A DNA stretch of 64,000 nt. Origin: Pseudanabaena sp. UWO311 (lineage in GTDB: Bacteria > Cyanobacteriota > Cyanobacteriia > Pseudanabaenales > Pseudanabaenaceae). The stretch's first letter is position 1. The number at the start of each line of letters is the position of its first letter. Shown here in pieces: positions 10,246 through 15,686 of the stretch. The DNA lies in the NCBI RefSeq assembly GCF_006937785.1, contig NZ_SJEE01000001.1, positions 124,001-188,000 of the forward strand, given 5' to 3'. The position numbers were made by a program, and so were the translations under genes. The notes beneath the pieces were generated by a model. It made no database searches and was not told the DNA's origin. It saw only the letters and a program-made list of their open reading frames with translations.

Positions 10246-10584
10246 ATGACTACTATCCGTGAAGTAACTGGCGATCCTAATGAATTTTGGAGTGAAATAG
10301 GCTGGTCAGATATGACTAGTGCAGAGCAAGCACTCTGGTCACAATTAGGTTGGAGTGAAGAAAGCTGGGAAGAGGAGGATGATTTTCCTGAATGGGACGA
10401 TTTGTCCGATGAAGATAAAAAAATGTGGGGTATCCTTGGCTGGACTCAATCTAGCTGGGAGGGAGAAGATGACATCCCTGAATCGGCAGAAAAACTCTGG
10501 GAAGACCTCACCAGTGAGGAGCAATCAGCGGCAACTCAGCTTGGCTATACCCAAGAGAAATGGGACGACGACGAGGAAGTCTAA
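10246..10584 (+). CDS. Acidic Trp-rich repeat protein
   Basis: A 112-residue, strongly acidic protein made of about three and a half tandem units of ~25-30 residues. Each unit runs L-T/S-x-E-E/D, a short helix, then a LGW/LGY motif and SW or KW followed by E/D: SQLGWSEESWEEED, GILGWTQSSWEGED and TQLGYTQEKWDDDE. I recall similar LGY-x4-WD units in other cyanobacterial and algal proteins without known function. No signal peptide or membrane segment. A good AGGAAA-like ribosome site precedes the ATG. It ends just before a perfect palindrome and the tRNA gene. Confidence 0.75.
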   Translation: MTTIREVTGDPNEFWSEIGWSDMTSAEQALWSQLGWSEESWEEEDDFPEWDDLSDEDKKMWGILGWTQSSWEGEDDIPESAEKLWEDLTSEEQSAATQLGYTQEKWDDDEEV

Positions 10585-10588
10585 GTCT

Positions 10589-10630
10589 TAAAAGCTATAG
10601 TCAGAGACTAGTCTCTGACTATAGCTTTTA
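10589..10630. repeat. Perfect 42-bp palindrome without a loop
   Basis: The 42 bases are a perfect dyad centred on ACTAGT, starting TAAAAGCTATAGTC. It begins four bases after the stop codon of the Trp-repeat gene. A likely terminator or cruciform-forming site; it shares its outer arm with the repeat at 9156-9196. Confidence 0.95.
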
Positions 10631-10700
10631 GCGATCGCAACAATTTTAAAATTTCTGATCGCAAATTCACCCATTTCGCGTTAGAATAGCAAAGCACTTT

Positions 10701-10783
10701 GGGAGTGTGGCGGAATGGTAGACGCTACGGACTTAAAATCCGTTGACTGTAAGGTCGTATGGGTTCAAGTCCCTTCACTCCCA
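10701..10783 (+). tRNA. trnL: tRNA-Leu (anticodon UAA), no intron
   Basis: A class II tRNA: acceptor GGGAGTG pairs with CACTCCC, followed by discriminator A. The anticodon stem CGGAC/ (loop TTAAAAT)/ CCG gives UAA. The variable arm is long (TTGACTGTAAGGTCG region), and the T arm is GGGTTCAAGTCCC. CCA is not encoded. Many cyanobacteria carry a group I intron inside this anticodon loop; here the gene is continuous. Confidence 0.95.
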
Positions 10784-10786
10784 CTT

Positions 10787-10827
10787 AAAAAATAGACTAC
10801 GATGCATAGCACCGTAGTCTATTTTTT
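10787..10827. terminator. Bidirectional terminator hairpin
   Basis: AAAAAATAGACTACG (10787-10801) and CGTAGTCTATTTTTT (10813-10827) form a 15-bp stem with an A-run on one side and a T-run on the other. It sits between the convergent tRNA-Leu and the ParB-like gene, so it can terminate both. Confidence 0.88.
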
Positions 10828-10842
10828 GGTTTTAGCTTATAT

Positions 10843-11775
10843 TTACCATGCATCAATTATCTTTTGCATAGTTGGTTCCTTAATACCAGAGACTTTACTT
10901 ATGACATCTTCGATAGATTGAAACTTTTGAGCATGGTGTTGCAATCTTTGCTCATGAATTGGTTTAGCAAGGCTGCGCTTACTTGGTTTCAATTGTGATA
11001 GCTTCCGTTCTAGATCGGAAAAATTCATTGTATTCAAATCATTGAGAACCTGTAAGACTTTAGGATCATTATTGTTAATAGACTTGTCTTTAGCCTTCGG
11101 TTTAGAACTCGACGTTTTAGATTTGGTGGTAGCAGCAGCTTTAGTGGTTTTAGATTTAACGGTCTTCTCAGGTGCTAATTCTGGGATTAGAGTGGTAGTT
11201 TTTGCTTGCGTCTCAAGGACTTGGCTAATAGGTACAAAGGATAATGACTGTTTGAAATCTAGTAAATGCGAGTTTAATTGCTGTGTAATTTGGTTGGCAA
11301 ATACTTGCAAACTAGCATTGATCCTTTCTTCAACTATGCGATCTATAGTGGCAGATAATTTTTTCTCTAATCGAGTAGCGATCGCATCTTCCATTTGAGC
11401 TAAGTCTTGTTTTTCAGCTTTACTAGTCTGGGAAGAAGTGATTTCAGTTGATGAGGATGAATCCAGCGATCGCAAAAAATTATATTGCTCAAGAATGGTT
11501 GACTCTAGATCCGTTGGAACAACATAAGCGCGGATTGCCGTAAATTGATCATCAATTTCCTGAGCTTTGAGCGCGGCATAATATTCAAAATATCCTTCCA
11601 GAATTTCAAATGAAATTGGCGAGACTCTACGTAATAAAATTGGCTTTACCGTTCCGCCTGCCTGTAAAAACAAATTAGCAAGATGCTCAATTTGGCTCGA
11701 TTGAAACTGAGATAGCTCTTGTGATGCTGGCGATACGATCATGTCAAGATCAATCGAAGAAGTGAGTAAACTCAT
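10843..11775 (-). CDS. ParB-like protein with degenerate ParB/sulfiredoxin domain
   Basis: A 310-residue protein. Residues ~5-95 resemble the N-terminal ParB fold: a binding-loop region (LANLFLQAGGTVKPILLRRV) followed by FEILEGYFEYYAALKAQ where canonical ParB has the GERRxRA box. The CTP-contacting Arg pair is therefore missing. No clear HTH core follows. Instead there is an amphipathic helix region, a Lys/Thr/Ser linker (~205-235) and a C-terminal helical part ending SIEDVISKVSGIKEPTMQ, which looks like a helix-hairpin-helix. The start overlaps the end of the ParA gene by ATGA (11772-11775), so it is a coupled partner. It probably binds DNA and/or the ATPase, but not as a standard CTPase clamp. 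Confidence 0.7.
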   Translation of the reverse strand: MSLLTSSIDLDMIVSPASQELSQFQSSQIEHLANLFLQAGGTVKPILLRRVSPISFEILEGYFEYYAALKAQEIDDQFTAIRAYVVPTDLESTILEQYNFLRSLDSSSSTEITSSQTSKAEKQDLAQMEDAIATRLEKKLSATIDRIVEERINASLQVFANQITQQLNSHLLDFKQSLSFVPISQVLETQAKTTTLIPELAPEKTVKSKTTKAAATTKSKTSSSKPKAKDKSINNNDPKVLQVLNDLNTMNFSDLERKLSQLKPSKRSLAKPIHEQRLQHHAQKFQSIEDVISKVSGIKEPTMQKIIDAW

Positions 11776-13190
11776 GAGCGTAGTCCTATTTTCTCAAGCA
11801 CTTCATTGGCTAACTCTTCAAACTCGGCGGCTGACATCGAATCTGGCTTAAAGTCAAAGATCGATTTAGGATCGGGGATTTGGCGATCGCCATCCATCAC
11901 AAAGTTATCAATTGCTCGTGATAAATCTTCCCGTTGAAAAATTCGGGTTTCTAATACGGAAAATCCATATCGCTCTTTGATAATCTTCTCTTGCTTTGGT
12001 AGAGTTGATTTAATATAATTCGCATTTGTCAATATTTTAGAAGGTAAAACTCCCAGAATATTGATTGAGGATCGATTGGTAAAACTGCGAAAATCATCAA
12101 TCTGTTCAATAAAGTTTTTGACATTGCGTAAACCTTCATTCGCAAAAGGTTTCAGATCAGATGGAATAATAAGGTAATCGCAGGCGATCAGGGCAATCCT
12201 TGCATAGAGATTGAGTGAGGGCGGCGTATCGATTAAGACTACATCATAGTCATCTTTCACAAGTTCCAACTTTTTAACCAGCTGAAATTTAGAACTTTCT
12301 TGGTCGATTAAAGCGTTTTCTTGCCAGATCAAATTAATATGCGCAGGAATAACATCGACTTCAGGATAGGTGAAGCTTCCCTTTAACGCGACATCATGAA
12401 TAAAGTTGGATTTAGGAAAGAAGATAATATTGTAGACGTTGCTGTCTCTAAGATTGTCTTCTTCTTCGGTGTCAAACTTCATTAAACCTGCGGCATAGGT
12501 TGTGTTTGCCTGACTATCAAGATCAATAATTAATACCTTAAAACCCTTACGACTAATAGCGGCGGCAAGATTAATTGTGGTGGTGGTTTTGCCCACACCA
12601 CCTTTGTTGTGATATATGGCGATCGTTTTCATGATTCTTGCTTGTAGAGATTCTAGAAGTGGAAGCGTATTACTCTCAGGAAATGGAAGTTTAATATCAA
12701 TTGGAACAGGTAGAGCAGTCAAAGGGATAGGTTTATTTATAGATTTATTTGTAGCAAGTCCCGCTAACTTATCCCTGCCAATAATATCGCTAATTTTCTC
12801 AATTTTGTCAGCAATTTCTATGCCTTCACATTGGAAGATTAGCTCTATTTGATCGTCAACAAGTTCATAAATCCGAAAATCTTTCCCGTTAGTTAATACC
12901 CCATATATAACTTGCAACTTAGTTAAATAACGCCTCAGCCGCCGCACATGGAAATTGAGATTTTGTTTGGGATGTTTTGCTTCCATCACCACACAGGGCT
13001 TCGGTGATGGGTCATTAATACTTGGAAAAACTGGGGAAAGCAATGCTAAAAAATCTAAACGAATACCACTCAATGCGACCTCTTGATGCCATTTGCTCGG
13101 ATCGTACCCAAGCGCTGGCAAAAGATATTGCACAATTAATTTGCTTTCGACCTCGCTTTCATTACGACAAAGTTTTGGATTAAAACTCAT
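11772..13190 (-). CDS. Fusion of HsdR-N-like (PD-(D/E)XK) nuclease domain to ParA ATPase
   Basis: About 472 residues from the ATG at 13190, chosen because it overlaps the coaX stop in ATGA; the open frame extends 21 codons further. Residues ~10-140 match the type I restriction HsdR N-terminal fold: NESEVESKLIVQYLLPALGY, IRLDFLALL, VVMEAK and VIYGVLTNGKDFRIYEL, giving an E...D...ExK nuclease site. After a Pro-rich linker (~150-185) comes a ParA/MinD-type ATPase with deviant Walker A NKGGVGKTTTT (~195) and LIDTPPSLN (~310). Downstream is a ParB-like gene, upstream coaX, all coupled. ParA ATPases move DNA or protein cargo; a nuclease-like head suggests targeting or degrading DNA, or only DNA binding. 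Function is unknown. Confidence 0.85.
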   Translation of the reverse strand: MSFNPKLCRNESEVESKLIVQYLLPALGYDPSKWHQEVALSGIRLDFLALLSPVFPSINDPSPKPCVVMEAKHPKQNLNFHVRRLRRYLTKLQVIYGVLTNGKDFRIYELVDDQIELIFQCEGIEIADKIEKISDIIGRDKLAGLATNKSINKPIPLTALPVPIDIKLPFPESNTLPLLESLQARIMKTIAIYHNKGGVGKTTTTINLAAAISRKGFKVLIIDLDSQANTTYAAGLMKFDTEEEDNLRDSNVYNIIFFPKSNFIHDVALKGSFTYPEVDVIPAHINLIWQENALIDQESSKFQLVKKLELVKDDYDVVLIDTPPSLNLYARIALIACDYLIIPSDLKPFANEGLRNVKNFIEQIDDFRSFTNRSSINILGVLPSKILTNANYIKSTLPKQEKIIKERYGFSVLETRIFQREDLSRAIDNFVMDGDRQIPDPKSIFDFKPDSMSAAEFEELANEVLEKIGLRS

Positions 13191-13891
13191 GTCAATGCCA
13201 TAATCCCCAAAAAAACTAGATTCTTTTCCATCATATCCACTTTTAAGCCCCATTTCATTAAATAATCGCTATCGCCTCCAGTAATAATCACTTGGCTCTG
13301 AGGAAACTGCGATCGCCAATCATCTATATAAGCTTGCAAGCCCGCTATTAATAGGTGCGCCACTCCACCTTGGATTGCTTCATGCGTATTCGTCGCCCAT
13401 CGTTTTGGCAAAGTTTCGGGGATTGGCAGATCTGGCAAAGCTGCTGTATTTTGATGCAAACAGGCAAACTGCGATCGCAGCCCAGCGATGATCGCTCCAC
13501 CCATCAAATTCTTATGCGCATCAATTGCAGTGATGGTAATTGCCGTCCCCGCATCAATCACCATCACTGGGTAGCCATAGTTTTCACCAGCGCCATAGGC
13601 TGCCAAGGCGCGATCGCATCCCATTGTCGAGTACAAGCCTTGCAATGGCACATCAGCAGTTGCGATCGTCTGAGTCTGTGGCAAACGATGCCAACTGGTA
13701 ATCATATCGGGAACGACTGAGGCGATCGCAATGCGTTCAAAATTTCTTGTTGCAAGTTTTGCTTCTAAGTTTGGTAATTGCTCGTGAGTATAGGCATATT
13801 CTTCAAGAATTTGTTTTTTGCTGTCAAAAATAACTGCCTTAATTCTGGTGTTGCCTATGGCGATCGCTAGTTGGATTTGGGACTTGCTCAC
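13187..13891 (-). CDS. coaX: Type III pantothenate kinase
   Basis: A 234-residue ASKHA-fold kinase that phosphorylates pantothenate in the first step of coenzyme A synthesis. Visible motifs: IAIGNTRIK near the N-terminus (phosphate 1 loop), DAGTAITI around residue 113 (second Asp/phosphate loop), GGAIIAGL, and IITGGDS near the C-terminus (adenosine motif). The length is slightly below the family norm of ~250. Its TGA overlaps the ATG of the nuclease-ParA gene, so CoA synthesis and that gene are co-transcribed and coupled. The reason for that pairing is not evident. Confidence 0.92.
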   Translation of the reverse strand: MSKSQIQLAIAIGNTRIKAVIFDSKKQILEEYAYTHEQLPNLEAKLATRNFERIAIASVVPDMITSWHRLPQTQTIATADVPLQGLYSTMGCDRALAAYGAGENYGYPVMVIDAGTAITITAIDAHKNLMGGAIIAGLRSQFACLHQNTAALPDLPIPETLPKRWATNTHEAIQGGVAHLLIAGLQAYIDDWRSQFPQSQVIITGGDSDYLMKWGLKVDMMEKNLVFLGIMALT

Positions 13892-13936
13892 AATATGCTT
13901 TTTTTCTAGAAAGATTAAGGCGGCGCATCGCGCTGT

Positions 13937-14054
13937 AGCCTTGCACTCAAGTGCAAGCTAAAAGCTCAAACCCTTTGAAACGGGTTAATGTATGAGTATT
14001 CTGTAGTCCACTTCAGTGGACTTAAGCTTTTAGCCTGCACTTGAGTGCAAGGCT
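13937..14054. repeat. Foldback repeat element, copy 1
   Basis: A 118-bp element with 30-bp terminal arms (13937-13966 and 14025-14054, one mismatch) beginning AGCCTTGCACTCAAGTGCA. Inside are two smaller hairpins: AACCC...GGGTT (about 13969-13986) and GTCCACT-TC-AGTGGAC (14006-14021). A second copy is at 26084-26244. No transposase is present. It may be a MITE-like foldback or a structured RNA. It occupies most of the 297-bp gap between coaX and the RDD gene. Confidence 0.9.
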
Positions 14055-14188
14055 TGAGTGCTTGAGTTATTGGTTTATTTGCGTAAGTACTAATATATAA
14101 GATTAAAATAAGACGAGCGATCGAGAAATACTCTCGCATTGTCGCCATATTTGCCAATTCATCACGTCTCTTCATAAAATTCCCCAAA

Positions 14189-15061
14189 ATGGACTTCGAG
14201 CCAGCATACAGCCGCTATCCTCTTGCCTCAGTCAACCAAAGACTCGGAGCGCTAATCGTAGACTTTTTAAGTTGTTGGTTTATATCAGAGCTAACTTTGT
14301 CTCTGCTATCAGTCACATCATCTAGTCCCTTACGCTTCATCACATTTTTGGTGACTTGGTTTGTCTTCCGCGTATTTATTGCAGCACGCGCTCAAGGTCA
14401 AAGCTTTGGTAGATGGCTGATGAGTATTCGGGTCATTGATGCTGAATATGGCAAAACTGCTGGATTTGGAGCATTTTTTAAGCGAGAGATTTTTGTATTT
14501 GTTTGCTCCCTATTTCTAATCGAAACGATTACCTCTACGCTGATCGTATTTGCATGGATTCCTTTTGTTGCTGATGCTGCCTTTGCGATTGTTGATAACG
14601 AGAAACGTCAAGCCTTTCACGATCGCATTAGTAGCACGATCTCGATTCAAAGTCGTAAAGGATTTGCGATCGATCAAAAATTAGGCAAACTTTTTAATCA
14701 AGCAGGACAACAAGCCACCAAGATTTATCAAAGTCGTCAAGATCGCGATCTTTATGAAGATGACTATGGCGCTCCTCGTCCTAAACCAACCCCAAAACAA
14801 AAGCGTCGTCCTCGTACAAAATCTCGTCCACCACAAGATTTTAATTTCGGCTCTAATTATGAAAGTGAATACGATCGCACCTACACAGATCCCTATGCTG
14901 AGCCGTTAGATCCGCCTAGAAATCCTTATAAAGGCGATATTAAAGATTTTGATGATTGGAATAATGATGATGATTATGGCGATCGCCCAGACTCATATCA
15001 AGAGCCATATCAAGACGAACCACCAATTAAGCGATCGGCTCGTCGTCCTCGAAGGAAATGA
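14189..15061 (+). CDS. RDD family membrane protein with charged tail
   Basis: A 290-residue protein. Residues 1-150 form the RDD domain: NQRLGALIVDFLSCWF with the conserved Arg and Asp, a middle helix ending GQSFGRWLMSIRVID, and FHDRISST near the end of the domain. There are about three membrane segments. The C-terminal ~120 residues are cytosolic, very hydrophilic and rich in D, R, K, P and Y (PKQKRRPRTKSRPPQDF; DDWNNDDDYGDRPD). RDD proteins are of unclear or transport-related function. The acidic and basic blocks in the tail could mediate protein contact; that is a guess. Confidence 0.85.
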   Translation: MDFEPAYSRYPLASVNQRLGALIVDFLSCWFISELTLSLLSVTSSSPLRFITFLVTWFVFRVFIAARAQGQSFGRWLMSIRVIDAEYGKTAGFGAFFKREIFVFVCSLFLIETITSTLIVFAWIPFVADAAFAIVDNEKRQAFHDRISSTISIQSRKGFAIDQKLGKLFNQAGQQATKIYQSRQDRDLYEDDYGAPRPKPTPKQKRRPRTKSRPPQDFNFGSNYESEYDRTYTDPYAEPLDPPRNPYKGDIKDFDDWNNDDDYGDRPDSYQEPYQDEPPIKRSARRPRRK

Positions 15062-15122: not shown

Positions 15123-15686
15123 ATGGTACAAGCCGCAGTTAAACCTTTCACTCTAGATGATTTTCTTGCCATGCCTGAGACTGAGCCAGAAAGTGAATAT
15201 TTTGAAAAGGAGATAATTCAGAAACCAATGCCTAAAGGAAAACATAGCGCAATTCAAACAGAGTTTGCGGCAGCGATTAATGCAAATTTGAGATCAAAGC
15301 GTATTGCCAGAGCTTTCTCAGAATTGCGCTGTACTTTTGGCGGAATATCTATTGTCCCAGATATATCAGTTTTTCGGTGGGAGCATATAGTTCGTGACTC
15401 TAATGGCGAAATCGCTAATATTTTAGACATCCCGCCCGACTGGATGATTGAAATTCTCTCGCCAGATCAGCGTCAAACTAAATTAGTCAAAAAGATTCTA
15501 TTTGCTCTGGAACATGGTACTGAGATGGCATGGTTACTAGATCCTGACGAGAAAGTAATCTTTATCTATAGGACTAATCAAGCTTTGCAAATATACGATC
15601 GCCCCGAACAAGTTATACCAATGCCAGACTTTGCTGGTGATTTACAACTTACTGTAGAAACCATTTTTAGTTGGCTCAGTGAATGA
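15123..15686 (+). CDS. Uma2 family (DUF820) PD-(D/E)XK protein
   Basis: A 187-residue Uma2 protein: FTLDDFLAMPETEPESEYF at the start, KHSAIQTEFAAAINAN, VPDISVF with the active-site Asp, and DWMIEILSPDQ carrying the catalytic Glu. The usual final Lys of the motif aligns near QTKLVKKI. Uma2 proteins are restriction-like nucleases expanded in cyanobacteria, with no agreed cellular role. It stands alone between two hairpins. A second, divergent member is at 44927-45523. Confidence 0.93.
   Translation: MVQAAVKPFTLDDFLAMPETEPESEYFEKEIIQKPMPKGKHSAIQTEFAAAINANLRSKRIARAFSELRCTFGGISIVPDISVFRWEHIVRDSNGEIANILDIPPDWMIEILSPDQRQTKLVKKILFALEHGTEMAWLLDPDEKVIFIYRTNQALQIYDRPEQVIPMPDFAGDLQLTVETIFSWLSE

Follow-up and report, generated by a model that had tools for sequence, protein, structure and literature searches.

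Organization of the locus

The locus lies within a 64,000-nucleotide stretch of a Pseudanabaena sp. UWO311 contig (hereafter, the window) and consists of a gene that fuses an HsdR-N-like nuclease domain to a ParA ATPase, followed by a gene for a ParB-like partner (Table 1). The coordinates given for the fusion gene in the initial annotation, 11772–13190, are correct, and the gene is located on the minus strand. ORF calling preferred an earlier ATG at 13253; the starts of homologues correspond instead to 13190, from which the encoded N-terminus matches theirs (MxFNPELCRNESEVESKL). An annotation artefact or frame error was ruled out, as the same fusion occurs in more than 100 loci. The overlapping coaX gene probably lies outside the system because it is the upstream gene of the Pseudanabaena loci.

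Three divergent clades of the fusion (A, B and C) were found in cyanobacterial chromosomes, with the partner nearly always next to it. In 136 of the 138 clade A/B loci, the partner is directly 3' of the fusion, in keeping with the downstream coupling noted initially, and the recurrence of this two-gene arrangement indicates that the pairing is more than chance.

Table 1. Features of the nuclease–ParA locus in window coordinates.
Feature	Position	Strand	Basis or remark
Hairpin with A/T-rich ends, probable terminator	10787..10827		just past the partner stop
Partner gene, 310 aa	10843..11775	minus	start overlaps fusion stop by 4 nt
C-terminal helix-hairpin-helix (HhH)-like domain, partner residues 238–310	10846..11064	minus	model and weak matches
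Long helix, probable coiled coil, partner residues 125–179	11239..11403	minus	model
ParB-N/sulfiredoxin-fold domain, partner residues 1–106	11458..11775	minus	fold, Foldseek, PF02195
Nuclease–ParA fusion gene, 472 aa	11772..13190	minus	ATG at 13190, stop at 11772
ParA ATPase domain, residues 187–472	11775..12632	minus	AAA_31 E=1e-53 (Pfam scan), Soj-like fold
Deviant Walker A (NKGGVGKTT), residues 195–203	12608-12582	minus	
Conserved internal start codon, Met187, of predicted short ParA	12630..12632	minus	clade A conservation
Variable, disordered linker, residues 148–186	12633..12749	minus	pLDDT, identity, omega
HSDR_N-type PD-(D/E)XK domain, residues 1–147	12750..13190	minus	Pfam, conservation, model
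Fusion residues E11, E15, D46, E70, K72	13160-13158, 13148-13146, 13055-13053, 12983-12981, 12977-12975	minus	
coaX (type III pantothenate kinase)	13187..13891	minus	4-nt overlap with fusion start

Domain structure of the fusion protein

In Pfam scans, residues 1–147 matched HSDR_N above the family cut-off (E=9e-6) and HSDR_N_2 just below it (E=4e-5); when N-domains were scanned alone, 48 of 49 family members matched HSDR_N_2 at E<0.01. The AlphaFold2 model of the fusion, built with 94 homologues, had a pLDDT of 89. Within it, residues 11–147 follow the alpha-beta-beta-beta-alpha-beta order of the PD-(D/E)XK fold (helix 11–26, strands 34–40, 43–49 and 64–71, helix 78–92, and strand 94–100), and the active-site motifs occupy the expected places, with D46 in IRLDFLALL, E70-x-K72 in VVMEAK and T100-N101-G102 in LTNGKDFRIYEL. 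Sequence searches for solved relatives of the N-domain returned spurious-looking matches only, the best being a repeat protein, and Foldseek gave one viral HSDR_N-type match. By its predicted fold order, active-site residues and Pfam matches, the N-domain qualifies as a PD-(D/E)XK domain of the HSDR_N type; the fold assignment is based on topology and Pfam, as the whole-model fold search lists ParA folds.

Residues 150–183 of the linker are disordered in the model (pLDDT <50). The ParA domain superposes onto the Soj model entry 9a6n with a Z-score of 35 and an rmsd of 1.8 over 253 residues, and K196–T203, D223/D225 of Walker A' and D321 of Walker B are all invariant, which places the domain among the deviant-Walker ATPases of the ParA/Soj type.

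Conservation of the nuclease active site

E70 and K72 are invariant (124/124 in clade A, 14/14 in clade B), D46 is kept in 123/124 and 14/14 proteins, respectively (137/138 overall), and E11 and E15 are present in nearly all complete N-termini of these two clades. The clade C counterparts are E24 and E85, found in 30/30 proteins, and D60 and K87, found in 29/30. The N-domain is better conserved than ParA (mean pairwise identity 66% versus 60%), and the linker far less so (17%). Omega between Pseudanabaena relatives was low in the N-domain (0.10) and in ParA (0.05) and much higher in the linker (0.80); with dS near 1, these are rough values.

With an omega of 0.10, purifying selection on the nuclease domain is strong. 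Together with the conservation, this is strong evidence of a selected function, and the DNA-cutting domain appears intact, with its active site kept. Two doubts raised in the initial annotation, that the first 150 residues might lack a PD-(D/E)XK fold or be a common inactive ParA extension, were thus dispelled: the fold is present in the model, and an inactive extension was ruled out because the ExK motif is invariant in all 138 clade A/B proteins and omega is 0.10.

A conserved start codon at the ParA domain

A start codon is found exactly at the beginning of ParA among the 124 clade A genes, as ATG in 122 and GTG in two, so that both valines at this place are encoded by GTG. Within the preceding 36 residues, which belong to a poorly conserved linker, methionine occupies six of 2412 positions (0.25%). 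At the corresponding place, methionine is present in 13 of 14 clade B proteins, none of 33 clade C proteins and none of six long plasmid ParA/RepA proteins; an IncC gene has it.

A Shine–Dalgarno (SD)-like sequence precedes the internal start in 43 of 67 non-redundant clade A genes, compared with an average of 10.8 and at most 20 in 500 synonymous-codon recodings. Arginine at the linker end is encoded by AGG in 29 of 38 cases versus 12% elsewhere (p=1.7e-18, for related and thus non-independent sequences). The signal is mostly confined to Nostocales (Nostocaceae 17/17, family f7 8/9, Pseudanabaenaceae 0/6), and none was found in the window's own genus. For this reason, the internal start in that genus is argued from the conserved ATG and from a further locus of the genus (L083), where most of the nuclease part is deleted and out of frame and exactly the Met187-type start is retained.

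The clade A gene therefore probably makes both the nuclease–ParA protein and, from Met187, ParA alone; for Nostocales the short form is likely, and for the window's organism it is plausible. Since clade C seems to manage with the full-length protein only, two products are not required by every member.

Nuclease-less relatives

In the ParA tree, a quick tree with many open forks, nuclease-less ParA genes with an intact partner (G111/G123 and G011/G213) fall inside clade A, as does a second, nuclease-less copy in G019; this placement implies at least three losses of the nuclease, with L083 as a further case. Frameshifted forms, which may be pseudogenes or sequence errors, were found in G286, G300, G013 and G121. 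The ParA–partner couple evidently persists without its nuclease and, since the losses leave it intact, is regarded as the core of the system, with the nuclease as an accessory.

In G019, the fusion gene adjoins the nuclease-less copy, whose ParA belongs to the same clade (L013:577-3208). In G121, a clade A ParA stands in frame behind a nuclease-like and SF1 helicase ORF, with the usual partner downstream (L178:774-4004); the helicase part contains a single in-frame TAG, and the locus is either a nuclease–helicase–ParA variant or its remnant.

The partner protein

The N-domain of the partner matched Myxococcus xanthus ParB (7bnk) with a Z-score of 12.7 over 93 residues and also resembles Noc (Foldseek E 4e-5), KorB and PadC (Z 10.9). 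PF02195 was detected at E 1e-3 in the window's partner and at 4.5e-9 in that of L093. Together with the Pfam matches and AlphaFold2 fold of the fusion, this upholds the original reading of the pair as an HsdR-N-like nuclease, a ParA and a ParB-like partner. The C-terminal domain resembles the HhH N-domain of TEFM (Z 9.3) and gave a weak comE match; HHH_6 was matched in L130.

In ParB, the GERR motif contacts CTP. At that place in the alignment, the partners carry the consensus GxxEYYAA or GxFEYYAA, and a CTP-clamp mechanism may therefore not apply to them; Gln97, which lies close to where ParB has its third motif, does not vary. The helix-turn-helix (HTH) that reads parS is absent from the partner model, and Pfam scans returned no HTH family. 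Several clade B partners show a C-terminal Rho_N/SAP match in Pfam instead of HhH, and the tails of clade C partners are mostly SAP-like, as read from sequence. Judging by these family names, the tail appears to have been exchanged between clades while remaining of a kind that binds DNA, with no evident sequence specificity.

A search for parS-like repeats across positions 10500–14200 yielded only three inverted repeats, two terminator-like and one inside coaX, none of them convincing. A perfect 42-bp palindrome without a spacer, possibly a terminator, lies between two convergent genes at 10589-10630 of the window. Seemingly two tandem partners, of clade A and clade B type, stand behind one fusion in L044 and L049 (f11 genomes) and in L056/L193 (G195).

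Distribution and genomic context

The fusion family is large and widespread among cyanobacteria. With the N-domain as the query, clade A or B was found in 64 of 386 cyanobacterial genomes, and the partner was found in 56. Clade C was present in 37 of 292 genomes, more than half of which also hold A or B when the genome lists are compared. Of the 38 genomes in the window's family, 29 carry a clade A ParA, each in a single copy. A close-range scan of genome contigs retained 80 loci, all cyanobacterial by title. In genome G042, a clade A fusion coexists with three separate fusions of clade C-like type.

The other neighbours are housekeeping genes that differ between lineages. Defence genes showed no visible excess in the flanks (115 flank proteins against 112 random ones, which are coarse counts), no signs of an integrated element were seen adjoining the locus, and the flanks revealed no mobile-element or defence link that would name a substrate. 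No plasmid record spans both domains, and the phage collection likewise lacks the fusion; on plasmids and phages, the N-domain sits in proteins of the restriction-modification type. A plasmid or phage origin was rejected, given the lack of a plasmid record with both domains and a single predicted viral contig, of clade C. This 58-kb IMG/VR contig carries a clade C fusion whose partner has a SAP-like tail (L204:5785-7808) near genes that, by eye, are HTH/ImmA-type and Rad52-like, and it was the starting point from which chromosomal clade C was found in cyanobacteria.

Comparison with known systems

In agreement with the initial annotation, no description of this pairing was found in the literature searched, which covered few subscription journals. 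ParABS systems (Soj–Spo0J, type I par loci) share the Soj-like ParA, the ParB-N partner fold and the ParA-then-partner order. Unlike them, the cyanobacterial pair adds a PD-(D/E)XK N-domain, its partner ends in an HhH or SAP/Rho_N tail and lacks two defining features, the HTH and GERR, and the locus lacks an evident parS-like repeat. Cargo positioners such as McdA–McdB and PadC–ParA likewise pair a ParA with an adaptor, which is either non-ParB or of ParB fold. The cyanobacterial McdA is a relative by fold (Z 29), and PadC shares the ParB-N fold with the partner. Those systems, however, lack a nuclease and have a known cargo.

For the predicted two-start design, the closest known counterpart is IncC1/IncC2–KorB of RK2, where an extended ParA with a second, in-frame start at the ParA domain is followed by a ParB-fold partner. 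The IncC extension, by contrast, contains no nuclease and is at most marginally HTH-like, KorB acts as a sequence-specific repressor/ParB, and IncC–KorB is plasmid-borne, whereas the fusion pair is chromosomal. The IncC second start was called unique to date in 2009 (PMC2666795), and the present family would be a second case of the arrangement.

Proposed mechanism and alternatives

Beyond the initial annotation, the analysis yielded a probable internal start, natural nuclease-less relatives and a large cyanobacterial family. We tentatively favour, at a little under an even chance, a general scheme in which the pair is a chromosomal DNA-handling module with the layout of a partition cassette and an accessory nuclease. 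The partner would sit on DNA through its tail and stimulate or recruit nucleoid-bound ParA-ATP, and mixed ParA dimers would carry nuclease heads, in limited number, to the partner-marked DNA, with ATP turnover limiting the timing of cutting. The ParA–partner couple would be able to work alone, and the likeliest use of cutting would be the clearance of partner-marked foreign, surplus or damaged DNA. A more specific version, an undescribed ParA-driven DNA surveillance in which the adaptor marks DNA by structure rather than sequence, the internal start determines what fraction of ParA bears the nuclease, and cutting is ATP-controlled and dose-limited, is conceivable but rather doubtful.

To our knowledge, ParA ATPases are known as positioners and not as nuclease carriers. 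A widespread fusion of this kind, combining ParA with a conserved nuclease site, an adaptor other than ParB and probably a second product, would connect DNA positioning with DNA cutting. Natural experiments are available in related genomes that differ in the presence of the nuclease domain, and in clades that differ in the presence of the internal start. Polyploidy occurs in many cyanobacteria, whose DNA segregation is poorly understood, and a knockout of the pair would therefore be directly informative.

The initial annotation had suggested a chromosomal anti-plasmid or anti-phage device, or the segregation system of an integrated element. As stated, neither was borne out: the flanks lack a visible defence-gene excess over random regions, no integrated-element signs lie adjacent, and the partner lacks a parS-binding HTH. 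Anti-plasmid or anti-phage defence, with the partner recognising invading DNA, the nuclease–ParA complex destroying it and nuclease loss leaving decoys or remnants, is unlikely. It would fit the conserved nuclease site, the patchy occurrence in the phylum sample and the family, the copy on the predicted viral contig, and the scatter of Pseudanabaena and Nostoc members across the gene tree, suggestive of horizontal transfer or of hidden paralogy. Wadjet and Lamassu also couple a nuclease to a DNA-acting ATPase aimed at plasmids or phages (PMC10586767), although their motors are of the SMC type rather than ParA and the likeness is by analogy only. However, the only PADLOC match was to PDC-M28B over P-loop residues 186–230, the flanks are of housekeeping type, and the retention of nuclease-less forms with intact ParA and partner is odd for an effector.

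Such retention, the par-like operon layout and the predicted IncC-like isoform pair would suit pure partition or positioning of chromosomes or other large cargo in polyploid cells, where the nuclease-fold domain would only bind DNA or regulate, as in long ParAs; the N-terminal domain of IncC1 modulates polymerisation and DNA binding (PMC2666795). We nevertheless consider this quite unlikely, since the full E-D-ExK set, unneeded for binding alone, is kept over three clades, and the locus offers neither an HTH nor an evident parS-like repeat. Repair and recombination proteins commonly have HhH or SAP tails, and the chromosomal, housekeeping-like neighbourhoods and the helicase-linked ParA of G121 would also agree with a system that repairs or processes the cell's own DNA, with the partner recognising ends or branched DNA and ParA spreading the nuclease over the nucleoid. 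This is improbable for a pair that is missing from most sampled cyanobacteria and has no constant repair neighbour, and the helicase fusion is interrupted by its TAG. The HSDR_N match and the shared motif order E...D...ExK...LTNG recall the N-terminal domain of type I HsdR (HSDR_N, HSDR_N_2). Yet ParA stands in place of the helicase/translocase motor, and the two-gene operon and the commonest flank families contain no HsdR motor, HsdM methylase or HsdS specificity subunit, which contradicts a role in type I restriction-modification and leaves it a negligible probability.

Two loci of genus g29, family f6 (L183 and L184), encode proteins of approximately 380 aa with the same HSDR_N-type domain and without ParA, and a putative endonuclease of the Uma2 family is encoded close to the locus, at 15123-15686 of the window.
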